From: Candidatus Tectimicrobiota bacterium
GTDB lineage: Bacteria > Tectomicrobia > Entotheonellia > Entotheonellales > Entotheonellaceae
Assembly: GCA_026005175.1 (NCBI GenBank)
Contig: BPKO01000002.1
Span: 280,501-344,500 of the forward strand
Length of the DNA: 64,000 nucleotides
Direction of reading: 5' to 3'
Shown one piece after another: positions 8,405 to 46,740 of this stretch. Numbering within the stretch: position 1 is the stretch's first letter; every line of letters begins with the position of its first letter. A model generated the notes under the pieces. The model saw nothing but the letters and a program-made list of their open reading frames with translations, made no database searches and had not been told where the DNA came from. Made by a program: the position numbers and the translations under genes.

Positions 8405-8437
8405 TGACAAAGTGTCGGCCCGCTGGACGAACTGTCG
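8405..8437 (+). promoter_or_regulatory. Tandem GACA-N3-TGTC dyads, activator sites for the USP sigma-54 promoter
   Basis: Two 13-base dyads lie here: TGACA-AAG-TGTCG (8405-8417) and GGACG-AAC-TGTCG (8425-8437). Their centres are 20 bp apart, two helical turns. A half-site GGACA is at 8454. They end 65 bases upstream of a sigma-54 promoter, the usual placement for NtrC-family enhancer sites. The same motif recurs at 11563-11596 and 23056-23088. Confidence 0.65.
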
Positions 8438-12735: not shown

Positions 12736-14144
12736 ATGACGGAAGCCAAAGTCCTGGTGGTCGACGACGAAGTGGAGATGCTGACGCTGCTGCGCAGCTA
12801 CCTGAGCCGCGAGGGCTACGCGGTCAAAACCGCACCCAGCGCCGAAACGGCGCTGCAGCTTCTCGAAGAGCACGACTTCGACGTGGTGCTCACCGACTTG
12901 CGCATGCGCGGCATGAGCGGCCTGGAGCTGCTGCAGGAGATCCGGGCGGCGCGGCCCGAGACGCAGATCATCTTGATGACCGCCTTTGGCAGCATCGAGA
13001 CGGCCATCGAGGCGATCAAAGCCGGTGCCTACCACTTCGTCACCAAGCCGGTGAAGCTGCCCGAACTCGGGGTGCTGGTGCGCAAGGCGCTGAGCGACCG
13101 CGACTTGCACCGCGAGAACCGGCAGCTGCGGCAGGCGGTGGCCGAGCGCTACGCCTTTGGCCAGCTGCTGGGCAAAAGCGCCGTCATGCAGCGCCTTTTT
13201 GCCCAGCTCGAGCGCCTAGCGGCAACCAGCAGCACCGTCCTCATCCAGGGCGAAAGCGGGCACCGGCAAGGAGCTGGTAGCGCGGGCTTTGCACTACAAC
13301 GGCCCGCGCCAGCGCTACCCCCTTTGTCCCCGTCAACTGCGCTGCGCTGCCCGAGGGGTTGCTGGAAAGCGAGCTCTTTGGCCACACCAAGGGGGCTTTC
13401 ACCGGGGCACAGGTAGCGCGGCGGGGGCTGTTCCTGGAGGCTTCTAAGGGAACGCTGTTTCTCGACGAGATCGGCGAGATGCCTCTGGGCATGCAGGCCA
13501 AGCTGCTGCGCGCCCTGGAGCAAGGGCGCATCCGGCCGGTGGGCAGCGACCGCGAAGTGGAAATCGACGTGCGCGTCATTGCCGCCACCAACCAGGACCT
13601 GGAGGCGGCGGTGCGCCGCGGCACGTTTCGCGAGGACCTCTACTACCGCCTCAAGGTGCTGGTGGTGCGGGTGCCGCCGCTGCGCGAGCACCGCGAAGAC
13701 ATCGCCTTTTTGGCTGAGACCTTTCTGCAGCGCTACGTGGCGGCCAACCAGCTGCCGCCGCGGCGCTTCACGCACGCCGCCTTGCGCCGCCTGGAGCAGT
13801 ACGACTGGCCGGGCAACGTGCGGGAGCTGGCGCACGTCATCGAGCGCGCCGTGACCCTGAGCAATGGCGAGTGGATCGACGTGGCCGACCTGGGCCTGGA
13901 AGAAAGCCTCCCTGCCACGGCACCGGCCGCGGGGGGAGGGGAGGTCCCCTGGCCCGATCCCCGGCAGCTGCCTGCCGAGGCCTTTAACCTCGACAAGGTC
14001 ACGCAGCGCCTGGTCGTGGCCGCCCTGGAGCGCACCCGCGGCCACAAGGCCCGCGCCGCGGCGCTGCTGGGCGTTCACCCCCGCACCCTCACGCGCATGC
14101 TGCGGCGCTACGGGCTCTGCGCTCAAGAGGCAGCGGGCAGCTGA
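12736..14144 (+). CDS. NtrC-family sigma-54 activator, orphan response regulator (two one-base breaks)
   Basis: Residues 1-120 are a receiver domain with phospho-acceptor aspartate in [13 protein letters not shown] and the lysine in FVTKPVK. A sigma-54 AAA+ domain follows, with Walker A region GESGTGKE, the GAFTGA loop in [10 protein letters not shown] and a Walker B FLDEIGEM. The end is a Fis-type helix-turn-helix ([20 protein letters not shown]). An extra G near 13255-13259 and an extra C at 13318-13322 split the frame; corrected, it is 468 residues. It lies 23 bases after gapdh with no histidine kinase nearby. It is the best local candidate to bind the GACA-N3-TGTC sites. Confidence 0.92.
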
Positions 14145-23055: not shown

Positions 23056-23088
23056 CGACAGGTTGTCCGCTCTGGGGACAAGTTGTCC
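23056..23088. promoter_or_regulatory. Tandem GACA-N3-TGTC dyads between two divergent sigma-54 promoters
   Basis: CGACA-GGT-TGTCC (23056-23068) and the perfect GGACA-AGT-TGTCC (23076-23088) have centres 20 bp apart. They lie 67 bp from the minus-strand promoter and 53 bp from the plus-strand promoter, so one activator could serve both. A further half-site GGACA is at 23028. Together with the two promoters this accounts for the gene-free interval 22921-23289. Confidence 0.7.
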
Positions 23089-41871: not shown

Positions 41872-43347
41872 CTACCGCACTGCCCCCGCCGGCCAAAACG
41901 GGTGATCGCTGACGCCCAGGGGCGCCCCACCGCAGATCTCAGTGCGATTTTCGCCGAGCTGGCTGTCTTCGAAGACGCCTAAGCCGTGTGGCCGGCGGCC
42001 TTGGCCGCTGGCCGCGGTCTCGTCTGCCGCAGGGGCTGGCACGGGCAGGCGGGCCAGCAAGACCATGGCCGGCAGCAGGAGAAGGGCGGTGAGCACAAAG
42101 GACGCTGCCGTAGCCAACGTGCTGGGCGAGGTAGCCGCTTGAGCACGGCCCCTACGATGCGGGCTGCCCCCTGCACGGCGTTGTAGAGTCCCATGGTCTC
42201 GCCGTGGTGGCCGGGGCCGGCCCAGCTGCCCGGCCACCACCGGCCCGGCCACGGCAATGACGCACCAGGAAAGGCCGGCCAGTACGTTGAGGACGCCCAA
42301 CCCCACCCAGGCGGCGGCCGTTGGCGGCAGCCAGGCGAGCGCCGCGAAGCCGACAAAGACCCCGCTGCGCATCCCGAGCGCCCAAAGCTGCACGCGCCGC
42401 GCTTCCCACCGCTGCGTCCAGCGCCCGGCCCACGTGTATCCCGGCGCCGACACCAGAGAACGAAGCAGGGGGCCCCAGGAGAAAGATCCCCGCGGTAGGC
42501 AGGTGCAGCTGCTGCTGGGCAAAGACCGGCAGCAAGGTAAAGGCGGCGGTAAAGCTGATGAAAATGGCCACTGTGGCCAGACTGTAGATCCCCAGCGGCG
42601 TGCGCCAGGGTGGGGTCACCTGCCACTGCCGCTGGCACACCGCCCAGTGCCACACGTAGCGGGGAATGTAGAGCACCCGCTCCACCACGGTGAGGGCCAA
42701 AAGCCGCTGGGCGCTGGCTGGCACGTGGCGCGGCGACAGCCGGCGCCGCGGCTCGGGCAGCGTCCGCCACACCCCCCAGGCAGAGACCAGGGTGGCCGCC
42801 GCCACCAGTCCGAAGGTGGCTCGCATGGCCGCCACCGGTGACAGTCCCCGCTCCAGCAGCGGCAAGATCACCGCGCCCAGAGCCAACCCAGCCCACCCAG
42901 CCCCAGCCTCCCAGTGCATTGTACGCCCCGAAGGTGGCCTCCCAGTGCCGCCGGGGCGTGGTTTCGGTAATCAGGACGGCAGCCAGCGCCGCCGGCGAGG
43001 GGGGGGCCCGCCATGGCACCGTAAAGCAAGCACAAGAAGGCCATCTGCCAGGCGGTGTGCGCCAGTCCCATCCCTAGCAGGCACAGGCCACTCCCCAGGC
43101 AACCCAGGACCAGCAAAGGGCGGCGCCGATGCCAGCGGTCGCTCAGTGCGCCCCACAGCATGGCCCCGGGGACGGCACTGAACGAGATGAGCCCGGTGAG
43201 CAAGCCCACCATCCCCACGGGCAGCCGCAGGCCGTTGAGTACAAAGAGGGGGAAGAGCAAGGAAAAGACCGCTTCGGCCCCCTTGTAAAGGGCCAGCGCG
43301 GCAAACCAGCGCGTCTTGACGCGCTTTAGGGAGCAAGGGCGCAGCAT
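41872..43347 (-). pseudogene. MFS transporter, broken by at least five frame shifts
   Basis: From ATG 43347 (after GAAAGGAGG) the frame encodes LALYKGAEAVFSLLFPLFVLN and GAMLWGALSDRWHRRRPLL, the MFS motif A region. Further MFS segments (VLITETTPRRHWEATFGAYN, LATVAIFISFTAAFTLLPVF, NVLAGLSWCVIAVAG, ETMGLYNAVQGAARI) appear in other frames down to 41872. Switches fall near 43000 (a run of eight G), 42900, 42480, 42230 and 42135, mostly in G or C runs. Whether this is assembly error or genuine decay cannot be told, but five breaks in 1.4 kb exceeds the local rate. Substrate unknown. Confidence 0.7.
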
Positions 43348-43389
43348 GGGCCTCCTTTCACGCGTGAGCCGGTGCCTCCTCTGCCTACC

Positions 43390-43405
43390 AACAAGAACCG
43401 TGCCA
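43390..43405 (-). promoter_or_regulatory. Possible sigma-54 promoter of the MFS gene (minus strand)
   Basis: Read from 43405 on the minus strand, TGGCACGGTTCTTGTT has a perfect -24 half and correct spacing, with TTGT for TTGC at -12. It lies 54 bases from the TCTCA-N3-TGAGA dyads, which are shared with a sigma-54 promoter on the other strand. Confidence 0.5.
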
Positions 43406-43459
43406 CGGCCGCCGGTGCCGCTAGCGCGCCCGCTCATCAGGAGATAGACGCCCGATGCC

Positions 43460-43544
43460 TCTCAGAATGAGAAAGCCGGCCGCGATTGCCCTCTCATTGT
43501 GAGAAGGGAGGCTGCTGTATTGCGCTCGCCGTTGCATTTTGAGA
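43460..43544. promoter_or_regulatory. TCTCA-N3-TGAGA dyads, activator sites of a second kind
   Basis: Two perfect dyads, TCTCA-GAA-TGAGA (43460-43472) and TCTCA-TTG-TGAGA (43492-43504), and a degenerate one, TTGCA-TTT-TGAGA (43532-43544). Centres are 32 and 40 bp apart, near three and four helical turns. They lie between divergent sigma-54 promoter candidates and account, with them, for the gene-free interval 43348-43694. The half-sites differ from the GACA/TGTC set. Confidence 0.7.
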
Positions 43545-43610
43545 AAGGCCGCCAAAGACGCCGGCCGTGCCATACTGCGACCCTGCGGGCAGCGCCTTTT
43601 TCTGCACAGG

Positions 43611-43626
43611 CGGCACGAAACTTGCA
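43611..43626 (+). promoter_or_regulatory. Sigma-54 promoter of the small secreted protein gene
   Basis: CGGCACGAAACTTGCA carries GGCACG and TTGCA with exact spacing. Transcription would start near 43637. The last dyad ends 66 bases upstream. Confidence 0.75.
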
Positions 43627-43694
43627 CATCTGTGGCGATATGGAAGTATCCAAAGTGGATGCGGGTCAAGGATCAGGTTAAGGAGGGCGACAAC

Positions 43695-43997
43695 ATGCGG
43701 TCCGCAGGGGTAAAGGGGGCTATCCTGGCGCTGGCGGTGCTCTGCGTCTGCGTCTTGGCAGCGGTGGCCGTGGCGCAGCAAAAGCCGGCGAAAAAGGCGC
43801 CTGCCAGCACGAAAATTACGGGGACGGTGGTGGCGGTCGATGCGGAGAAAGCTTTGCTGACGCTGCAGACCAAGGGCGGCAAGCAGCGGACGTTGAAAGT
43901 AGACGCCAAGCTCCTGGAAGGCCTCCAGAAAGGCGACAAAGTCGAAGTCGAGTTTGCGGGCAAAAAAGTCAAAGCCATCCACAAGCAAGAGGGCTAA
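43695..43997 (+). CDS. Small secreted or periplasmic protein with an OB/DUF5666-like domain
   Basis: 100 residues. A signal peptide (GVKGAILALAVLCVCVLAA, cleavage near VAVAQQ) is followed by a lysine-rich linker and a compact beta domain, ITGTVVAVDAEKALLTLQT then VDAKLLEGLQKGDKVEVEF. That rhythm resembles DUF5666/OB-like domains that bind small ligands or metal, but I cannot assign a function. AAGGAGG precedes the ATG. It is driven by a sigma-54 promoter with its own class of dyads and is followed by a terminator and a convergent NtrC-type regulator. Confidence 0.8.
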   Translation: MRSAGVKGAILALAVLCVCVLAAVAVAQQKPAKKAPASTKITGTVVAVDAEKALLTLQTKGGKQRTLKVDAKLLEGLQKGDKVEVEFAGKKVKAIHKQEG

Positions 43998-44108: not shown

Positions 44109-45470
44109 TCAGATGTCGGGGGCGGAGAGGTGGTACTCTTTGAGCTTGCGGTAGAGGGTGGCGACGCCGATGCCAAGCTGCTGCGCCGCGGCCTGGCGGT
44201 TGCCGCCACAGCGCTGCAAGGCCTGCAAAATCGCCGCGCGTTCAATGTCGGCCAGGGTGGCGGTGGCCGGCAGGACGAAGTGGTCGGGGGGCGCAGGCGG
44301 GACGCCTTGCAGGTGGGGCGGCAAGTCGGCAAGATCGAGCGTTGGCCCCTGTGCCAGGACCACGGCGCGCTCGATGACGTGCTCGAGCTCGCGCACGTTG
44401 CCGGGCCAGTGGTAGTCCTGCAAGCGCTGCAGGGCCCGCTGCTGGATGGCGGTGATGTCTTTGTGGTTCTGCTGGGCATACTTGCGGATGAAGTGGGCCA
44501 CCAGCAATGGGATGTCCTCGCGCCGCTCGCGCAGGGGTGGCAGGCGGATGGCGATGACGTTGAGGCGGTAAAAGAGGTCCTCGCGAAAGCGATGCGCCGC
44601 CACTTCCTGCTGCAGGTCCTTGTTGGTGGCGGCAATGATGCGCACGTCCACGTGCAGCGTCTGGGTGCCGCCGAGGCGCTCGAAGGTGCCTTCCTGCAAA
44701 ACGCGCAGCAGCTTGGTCTGCACTTCCAGGGGCATGTCGCCGATCTCGTCGAGAAAAAGCGTGCCGCCGTGGGCCAGCTCGAAGCGCCCCGCTTTGCGCT
44801 GTGCGGCACCGGTAAAGGCCCCCTTTTCGTAGCCAAAGAGCTCGGCTTCGATGAGCGTGAGGGGGAAGGCGGCGGCGTTGAGGGTGATAAAGGGCCGCGC
44901 GGCGCGGGGACTGAGCCGGTGCAGCAGGCGAGCAATCAGCTCCTTGCCGGTGCCGCTTTCGCCGGTAAGCAGCACCGTGGCCCGCGTGGGTGCCACTTGC
45001 TCCACCAGGGCACAGATGCGGCGCCACGCCGGGCTCGAGCCGATCACCTCGGCGCGGGCAAACTGGTCCTGCACCTGCTGCTTGAGGAGCAGGTTTTCTA
45101 CCAACACGCGGCGCAGCGTCAGGGCCTTCTGTACCGTGCGCAACAGCTCAGCCTTGCCAAAGGGCTTGACCAGGTAGTCAAAGGCACCGGCTTTCATCGC
45201 CTCCACCGCGGCGCTGACGTCGCTGTGGCCGGACATCATCACCACCACCAGATCAGGGTAGGCGGCTTTGACATGACGCAGCAAGGCCAGCCCGTCGGTG
45301 CCCGGCATCTTCACGTCGCTGATCATCACGTCGACGGCCGCCGCCTGCAGGTGTGCCAGCGCTTCGGCCGCCGAGGCGGCCGTCAGCACCTCGTGCCCCT
45401 CGCGTTGCAGGGCCGCCTGCAACGCGTCGCGGGCGCTGCGCTCGTCGTCGATAACCAAAATGCGGGCCAT
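44109..45470 (-). CDS. NtrC-family sigma-54 response regulator
   Basis: 453 intact residues. Receiver domain with aspartate in [14 protein letters not shown] and lysine in [10 protein letters not shown]+ domain with Walker A GESGTGKE, the GAFTGA loop in [11 protein letters not shown] and FLDEIGDM; Fis-type helix-turn-helix [20 protein letters not shown] at the end. It lies 15 bases downstream of its cognate kinase. It activates sigma-54 promoters; the nearest ones are at 43390, 43611 and 46741, and the TCTCA-N3-TGAGA dyads are its most likely target. Confidence 0.95.
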
Positions 45471-45485: not shown

Positions 45486-46610
45486 CTAGCCGCCGGCGCC
45501 GTGGCGGGGCAGGCGCAGAGTGAAGGTGGTGCCTACGCCGAGGGTGCTGGCCACCTCGATCTCCCCGCCGTGGGCGCGAATGATCTCGCGCACCAAGTAG
45601 AGGCCCAGGCCGGTGCCTTCAGGCTTGGTGCTGTGGAAGGGGCTAAACAGCAAAGGCAGGTGCTCAGGGGGAATGCCACAGCCACTGTCGCTGATCGCCA
45701 GGAAGACGTGAGTGGCGGTGGCCCAGGCGCGCAGGCTGAGGGTGCCTCCTTGGGGCATGGCCTCAAGGGCGTTGTGGCTCAGGTTGAGGAGCAGGCGGCG
45801 AAAGCTGCTGCCGTGCAAGGCCACCGTACCCAGGGGAGCGTCGCTTTCGAGGCGCAAGACCACGCCGCGCTCCGCCAGCCGCGGCTGCAGTTCTCGACAG
45901 AAGGCCTGCAAGTAAGCGGCAAAATCAACCGGCTCGCGCGGCAGCTCCGGCAAGCGGGCCAGCGACAGGTACTGCTGGGCCAGGTCGTACAGGCGCGTCA
46001 CTTCTTCTTTGATAGCCGCCAGGGAGTCGAGGATGCGCTGGCGATCACCTCCATCAGGGCGGCGCACTTCGTCTTCAAGCAAGTCGGCGTGCAGGAAAAT
46101 GGCGGTCAGCGGCGTGCGGATCTCGTGGGTCACCGCACCGGCCAGCCGCCCGAGGAGGCTGAGGCGCTCGCTTTGCACCATGCGGCGGTGCAGGGCTTCG
46201 AGCTCCGAGAGATCACGCAGCACCACCACGGCCTGCCGCTGGCTGCTGCCCAGTTGGCGCAGCGGCGAGCAGCGAATGCTGACCGGCAGGCGGCGGCCGT
46301 CGGCTCGCACCAGCAGCAGCCGCTCACCCACTGTGGGGGTCCCCGCCAGCGCTTCCTGGACCAGCCGTGTCGCCACCTGCGGCTGGTCGAAGAGCCGCGC
46401 CAGGCCCACCGCGTTCACTTCCGCCAGGGTATAGCCGGTGAGCTGGGCGGCCCGCGGGTTCCAGGAAACGATGCTGCCCTCGGCGGTGAGGATGGCTACC
46501 CCTTCGGTGAGTTGGGCCAGAACCTCTGCCAGCAGCGCCTCTGCTTCCTGGGACGGAACGGCACTGCTGGCAGGCAGCGGCGGGGTCTCAAGCTCGGCGT
46601 GGTGGGACAT
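45486..46610 (-). CDS. PAS-domain sensor histidine kinase
   Basis: 374 residues, no membrane helix, so cytosolic. A PAS domain (about 25-135; GVAILTAEGSIVSWNPRAAQL) is followed by the H-box GAVTHEIRTPLTAIF and the ATPase boxes NLSHNALEAMP, DSGCGIPPEHL and GTGLGLYLV. It would phosphorylate the adjacent NtrC-type regulator. ATG 46610 after AAAGGAACGTTCC is preferred over an upstream TTG. Its 5' end faces the sigma-54 promoter of the aminomutase cluster. Confidence 0.93.
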   Translation of the reverse strand: MSHHAELETPPLPASSAVPSQEAEALLAEVLAQLTEGVAILTAEGSIVSWNPRAAQLTGYTLAEVNAVGLARLFDQPQVATRLVQEALAGTPTVGERLLLVRADGRRLPVSIRCSPLRQLGSSQRQAVVVLRDLSELEALHRRMVQSERLSLLGRLAGAVTHEIRTPLTAIFLHADLLEDEVRRPDGGDRQRILDSLAAIKEEVTRLYDLAQQYLSLARLPELPREPVDFAAYLQAFCRELQPRLAERGVVLRLESDAPLGTVALHGSSFRRLLLNLSHNALEAMPQGGTLSLRAWATATHVFLAISDSGCGIPPEHLPLLFSPFHSTKPEGTGLGLYLVREIIRAHGGEIEVASTLGVGTTFTLRLPRHGAGG

Positions 46611-46740
46611 GGAACGTTCCTTTCGCAAGCGGTGCCGGGGTGGTGTGCGCCTCGCGTACTAACAAAAAGCTAGCACGCCGCGGCAAGGCACACAAGGCCA
46701 TTGCCGCCTGCCCGCACCGCTTCCTGCGACTGCCGGGCAG

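Follow-up and report, generated by a model that had tools for sequence, protein, structure and literature searches.

In Escherichia coli, ZraSR-zraP places a kinase and an NtrC-type regulator beside the gene of a small periplasmic protein, which carries a sigma-54 enhancer. For SypG of Vibrio fischeri, the UAS motif reported is TTCTCANNNTGMDWN, direct DNA binding by SypG being without biochemical demonstration (PMC10162802). In C. difficile, cdsB requires SigL and CdsR, together with a region upstream of it that contains two inverted repeats (PMC5767170). LuxO has the UAS TTGCA-N3-TGCAA, and its variants S423A, I425A, Y426A, R427A, K428A and L429A lose binding (PMC11407668). A text search of the literature for the literal motif TCTCA-N3-TGAGA found nothing; Nie et al. 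give their UAS motifs in a figure.

The locus described here lies in a 64,000-nucleotide stretch of a Candidatus Tectimicrobiota genome, to which we refer as the window; its features are collected in Table 1. TCTCA-N3-TGAGA dyads are set between divergent sigma-54 promoter-like sequences, with the gene of an NtrC-type response regulator and enhancer-binding protein (EBP), called 44109 here, close by. We regard it as probable that the locus is a two-component, sigma-54-dependent enhancer that serves both divergent promoters and is read by 44109.

Table 1. Features of the window, with dyads found at other loci (L numbers) in the last two rows.
Feature	Position	Strand	Details
Candidate enhancer dyad 1	43460-43472		TCTCAGAATGAGA; perfect TCTCA-N3-TGAGA; centre 43466
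Candidate enhancer dyad 2	43492-43504		TCTCATTGTGAGA; perfect TCTCA-N3-TGAGA; centre 43498, 32 bp from dyad 1
Dyad 3	43532-43544		TTGCATTTTGAGA; degenerate, two mismatches, T..CA-N3-TG..A kept; centre 43538
Plus -24/-12 promoter-like sequence	43611-43627	+	CGGCACGAAACTTGCAC (CGGCAC-GAAAC-TTGCA); GG 43612, GC 43624
Minus -24/-12 promoter-like sequence, weaker	43390-43406	-	GTGGCACGGTTCTTGTT (TGGCAC-GGTTC-TTGT); GG 43404, GT 43392
Plus target, 100-aa protein	43695-43997	+	AAGGAGG before ATG 43695
Minus target, MFS transporter reading	41979-43347	-	Start ATG 43347 with AAAGGAGG
44109, NtrC-type response regulator/EBP	44109-45470	-	Receiver, AAA+ with GAFTGA, Fis HTH
PAS histidine kinase	45486-46628	-	Operon partner of 44109, 15 bp upstream
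GACA-N3-TGTC dyads	8406-8436, 11585, 23057-23087, 35735		Two are pairs 20 bp apart
-24/-12 sites beside GACA-N3-TGTC dyads	8502, 11649, 22989/23141, 35700		22989 on -, 23141 on +
Second NtrC-type regulator	12745-14126		Split by frameshift
TCGCA/TATCA dyads near [VI]ATLYRK EBPs	L381:1888-1941, L383:1888, L396:295-328, L410:1938, L412:1938, L437:2453		5-3-5, some tandem
TGACA-N3-TGTCA dyads	L003:2881-2926, L190:235, L199:2988, L207:249-294		[AT]RTIYRK EBPs; L207 has a perfect pair, the other loci show one mismatch

The dyad centres are spaced 32 bp (dyads 1 to 2) and 40 bp (2 to 3) apart within an intergenic region (43348-43694) whose G+C content is 61%, vs 67% for the window. The 3.99 Mb assembly holds two perfect TCTCA-N3-TGAGA dyads, both at this locus, and no copy of the reversed control pattern; the base composition of the window predicts 1.05 single perfect dyads and 1.1e-5 pairs per assembly. 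When the intergenic region was shuffled 20,000 times, no shuffle carried two TCTCA dyads, and seven carried two dyads of any 5-3-5 family. That TCTCA sites mark a large regulon here was rejected, as there are only the two perfect dyads and the assembly-wide count with two mismatches allowed (311 vs 269 for the control) is near background.

The plus promoter combines a consensus -12 with a -24 in which C stands for T, and the minus promoter a consensus -24 with a weak -12, where GT replaces GC. From the GG of the plus promoter, the centres of dyads 1, 2 and 3 lie 146, 114 and 74 bp upstream; from that of the minus promoter they lie at 62, 94 and 134 bp. Both promoters have multiple dyads at the distance of about 60-250 bp upstream of a -24/-12 element that characterizes a sigma-54 UAS or enhancer, and outward-facing sigma-54-like sites of equal score on both sides occur at 0.2% of window positions. 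The arrangement of dyads and promoters between divergent genes is real and beyond chance. The first-pass annotation had described two perfect dyads and a degenerate one with these spacings, flanked by a plus promoter with a consensus -12 and a minus one with TTGT at -12, and the sequence bears out all of these positions. The genome-wide scan that it proposed places both perfect copies of the assembly between these -24/-12 promoters, and its distance of 480 bases to an NtrC-type kinase/regulator pair is right when counted from 43626, the end of its interval, to the regulator stop at 44109.

The RpoN DNA-binding domain (PF04552) was not found in the assembly, which is 77% complete and consists of 14 contigs. 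This absence is weak evidence, because of that completeness and because at least two window genes look frameshifted; the genome nevertheless contains many -24/-12 sites as well as EBPs that carry GAFTGA.

The 44109 protein contains the domains Response_reg (4-113), Sigma54_activat (142-308) and HTH_8 (405-446), with GAFTGA in its translation, and its Fis recognition helix carries GVATLYRK. A search with the back-translated helix found ATLYRK encoded once in this genome, in 44109, and the other EBPs found here have helices unlike it. Assignment of 44109 to a named NCBIfam equivalog was rejected, as every match fell under its curated cut-off (bits/cut-off: NtrC 490/558, AtoC 477/714, ZraR 421/760, PrsR 420/502, LuxO 380/800). 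The gene lies 480-650 bp from the dyads. Its operon with the kinase, in which no TCTCA-N3-TGAGA dyad of its own was found, is located beyond the 100-aa gene and is convergent to this plus target, not divergent from it. By eye, no transmembrane stretch was seen in the kinase. Comparison across genomes gives good support to the view that the dyads serve a sigma-54 enhancer and are bound by an NtrC-type EBP; 44109 is the likely activator at the TCTCA dyads.

The plus promoter lies about 70 bp ahead of the 100-codon gene, which has a strong ribosome-binding site. By eye, the protein that it encodes has a signal peptide; its core is predicted to be OB-like, of beta-beta-beta-alpha-beta-beta order, with a block pLDDT of 81-90 over residues 41-100 in the predicted structure. 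Its matches in Pfam were all sub-threshold, including CusF (19.1 vs a cut-off of 27 bits) and DUF1344, and a search of four other genomes of its phylum returned neither a match to the protein nor an orthologous locus. On the other side, the MFS transporter reading is spread over several frames by several frameshifts, reflecting either a pseudogene or indel errors. It is a guess, made from this pair of genes, that the exported OB-like protein and the MFS transporter belong to an envelope or efflux response.

In the mechanism that we propose, the cytosolic PAS kinase would phosphorylate 44109, whose dimers would bind both perfect dyads cooperatively, about three helical turns apart, and also the weak third site. 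Bound 44109 would then assemble its AAA+ ring and, by looping, reach sigma-54 polymerase at the plus and perhaps also the weaker minus promoter to activate transcription. The output would be the small exported OB-like protein and, if its gene is intact, the MFS transporter. As far as we infer its signal and the function of its targets, this would be a small envelope or efflux response with a layout like that of zraP/zraSR.

The likeness to ZraSR-zraP lies in this layout and in ZraR being among the best NCBIfam matches of 44109; in contrast, 44109 falls far under the ZraR cut-off, the plus target is without ZraP homology, and target and regulator genes are not arranged divergently. SypG shares with 44109 the response-regulator EBP type and, on our reading of the locus, the use of sigma-54; the SypG sites of Vibrio are those at the syp locus and at qrr1. 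Set against TTCTCANNNTGMDWN, the right halves of the window dyads, TGAGA, match TGM (M = A), and the left halves, CTCTCA, miss the first T of TTCTCA in both perfect dyads. The Vibrio SypG differs in its helix, STVYRK vs ATLYRK in 44109, and in its target, a polysaccharide locus. The listed tandem TCTCA dyads of V. splendidus, V. crassostreae and V. neptunius sit ahead of syp-type genes; those that follow the dyads encode STAS, OmpA and polysaccharide-export proteins, with a SypG-type EBP about 7-9 kb further.

In Clostridia, an EBP with an AT.YRK helix is immediately followed by tandem TCTCA dyads at a spacing of 32-33 bp, then by a -24/-12 site and a gene of the serine-dehydratase-alpha family. 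Judged by the target family, these loci are probably cdsR-cdsB. The Clostridia EBP is a PAS one-component protein, whereas 44109 is a response regulator. LuxO shares with 44109 the 5-3-5 dyad with a CA-N3-TG core, and its helix, SPST[LI]YRK, aligns with ATLYRK; it differs in the outer bases of the half-site and has S423 where 44109 has A. The loss of binding in LuxO S423A would fit a correlation between helix and site, without being proof of it.

For tandem TCTCA-N3-TGAGA dyads, 386 whole genomes and the GTDB contig collection were scanned, and the matches listed were analyzed. A sigma-54-like site (score of at least 7.5) lies within 260 bp of 21% of the listed tandem dyads, vs 1.3% of positions drawn at random from that DNA. 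A spacing of 32-33 bp (the window has 32) was found, among the matches listed, for 11 of 31 promoter-linked pairs vs 7 of 122 other pairs (p = 5e-5). Many listed tandem pairs, in Actinobacteria and Oscillospiraceae, are without sigma-54 context, and therefore the dyad alone is no proof of an EBP site. At least 15 of the promoter-linked listed loci hold an EBP gene, which usually ends immediately ahead of the dyads; the AT.YRK helix is present in an EBP at 15/15 such loci, and in 4/135 EBPs that were not fetched via a dyad. The Clostridia loci were rejected as independent support, being mostly one clade in the AAA+ tree with one target family.

Tandem dyads occur in four genomes of the 386-genome scan (this genome, G000, and G234, G271 and G291), and all four encode a Fis-type ATLYRK helix: in 44109 in G000, in EBPs in G234 and G291, and in a small Fis-type protein without AAA+ in G271. 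The AT.YRK EBPs are scattered over the AAA+ domain tree, with 8 changes by parsimony, at least 2 of which are forced by well-supported branches; 44109 itself is closest to an EBP of its own genome with a different helix. This suggests that the helix tracks the site rather than the common descent of the activators, in a tree whose deep support is weak and whose Clostridia are mostly one clade.

The small G271 protein (L288:1450-1900) has a Fis HTH with the helix GRATLYRK, and its genome has 10 TCTCA dyads, vs 3 for the reversed control. G234 carries 18 perfect TCTCA-N3-TGAGA dyads, vs 0 for the reversed control (L355-L364, L368, L052 and L055; L052 and L071 are the same contig, from isolate Dive96_bin1.162). 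At about 10 of its 16 dyad groups a sigma-54-like promoter lies no more than 300 bp away, and some of the genes downstream of the dyads, several in number, encode exported proteins with PEP-CTERM-like tails. The G234 dyads thus resemble a PEP-CTERM regulon under sigma-54 whose site differs from the proteobacterial motif described in Haft 2006 (PMC1569441).

In the reverse direction, ATLYRK was back-translated and searched in 376 genomes, and most of the matching places were read. The helix was rejected as a sufficient predictor of TCTCA: a perfect TCTCA dyad lies within about 2 kb of 2 of the 41 ATLYRK EBPs found by helix alone, and others have TATCA or TCGCA. Perfect dyads with TCTCA, TATCA or TCGCA are located within about 2 kb at 10 of 45 ATLYRK loci (three of these 45 come from genomes picked for dyads) vs 0 of 76 with other helices (p = 2.5e-5, partly post hoc, as the TATCA and TCGCA half-sites were first spotted in the same data); control half-sites of the same composition were found at no locus of either group. 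For the wider class T..CA the counts are 11/45 vs 2/76 (p = 3e-4), with 1/45 vs 5/76 for the control AC..T. EBPs with [VI]ATLYRK have TCGCA or TATCA dyads nearby, and the helices nearest that of 44109 (L410, L412) are paired with TATCA-N3-TGATA. The helix thus supports the class T-N-N-CA only, not TCTCA exactly; the case for this precise half-site comes from proximity, from uniqueness within the genome and from the sequences of the sites.

EBPs with [AT]RTIYRK have TGACA-N3-TGTCA dyads in their loci, a possible second pairing of helix and site. A cross-phylum Fis-helix code, in which T.YRK would read CA-N3-TG and its neighbours would choose the outer bases (A giving T[CA][TG]CA; S giving TTGCA or TTCTCA; R with I giving TGACA), is a tentative proposal that we would sooner doubt than adopt.

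The GACA-N3-TGTC dyads of the window, with their own -24/-12 sites, are a separate enhancer type, and the difference in half-sites that the first-pass annotation pointed out is plain in the sequence. The second NtrC-type regulator of the window lies near GACA-N3-TGTC sites; a close relative in G001 (L183) has no such dyad within 1.5 kb. The earlier proposal that two paralogous activators with separate site codes coexist here is half demonstrated, on the side of 44109: its probable site differs and ATLYRK is in no other EBP found. As to the comparison of helices, the other EBPs found have unlike ones, and ATLYRK predicts the class T-N-N-CA, not TCTCA. The idea of a new code was not sustained, as the SypG motif (PMC10162802) and the EBP-adjacent Clostridia loci look alike; the TCTCA-type site is not a new principle, the same kind being used by unrelated bacteria. 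Nor is the coexistence of separate codes noteworthy in itself, being normal in genomes such as that of D. vulgaris, with 37 EBPs and 33 identified motifs (PMC4641369).

How firmly the dyads can be tied to sigma-54 and to 44109 depends on what else they could be. Chance palindromes would agree with the near-control count of two-mismatch dyads across the assembly, but the uniqueness of the perfect dyads, with about 1e-5 pairs expected, effectively refutes this reading, to which we give almost no weight. It is improbable, though less so, that an unrelated regulator, be it a repressor or a protein of Fis type that lacks AAA+, uses the dyads as its operators, beside coincidental -24/-12 matches. 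Pairs without sigma-54 promoters do exist in Actinobacteria and Oscillospiraceae, the ATLYRK protein of G271 has no AAA+ and the tandem pair of that genome no sigma-54-like site, and rpoN was not found in the present assembly. Such operators would, however, have high-scoring outward -24/-12 sites on both sides at only 0.2% of positions by chance, and both the 32-bp spacing, which is that of the sigma-54-linked pairs, and the presence of EBPs with GAFTGA argue against them.

A somewhat stronger rival, still an unlikely one, accepts the sigma-54 enhancer and assigns the dyads to another EBP, whose gene would lie at a different place or in sequence that the assembly lacks, with 44109 a mere neighbour. 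Action in trans is frequent among EBPs: in G234, G271 and G291 the tandem dyads do not adjoin the ATLYRK gene. The assembly is incomplete, and the genes of 44109 and of the plus target converge. Against this reading, 44109 holds the sole ATLYRK of the genome close to the dyads, and no similar helix was seen in the other EBPs found. An enhancer read by 44109 is the reading that we prefer.

If the helix code is true, the window would supply its case of TCTCA being read by GVATLYRK, and the PEP-CTERM regulon of G234, outside Proteobacteria, would fall under the same code. The locus provides a concrete pairing of site and regulator for a poorly sampled lineage, and the correlation between helix and site could allow the enhancer sites of uncharacterised sigma-54 activators to be predicted from sequence.
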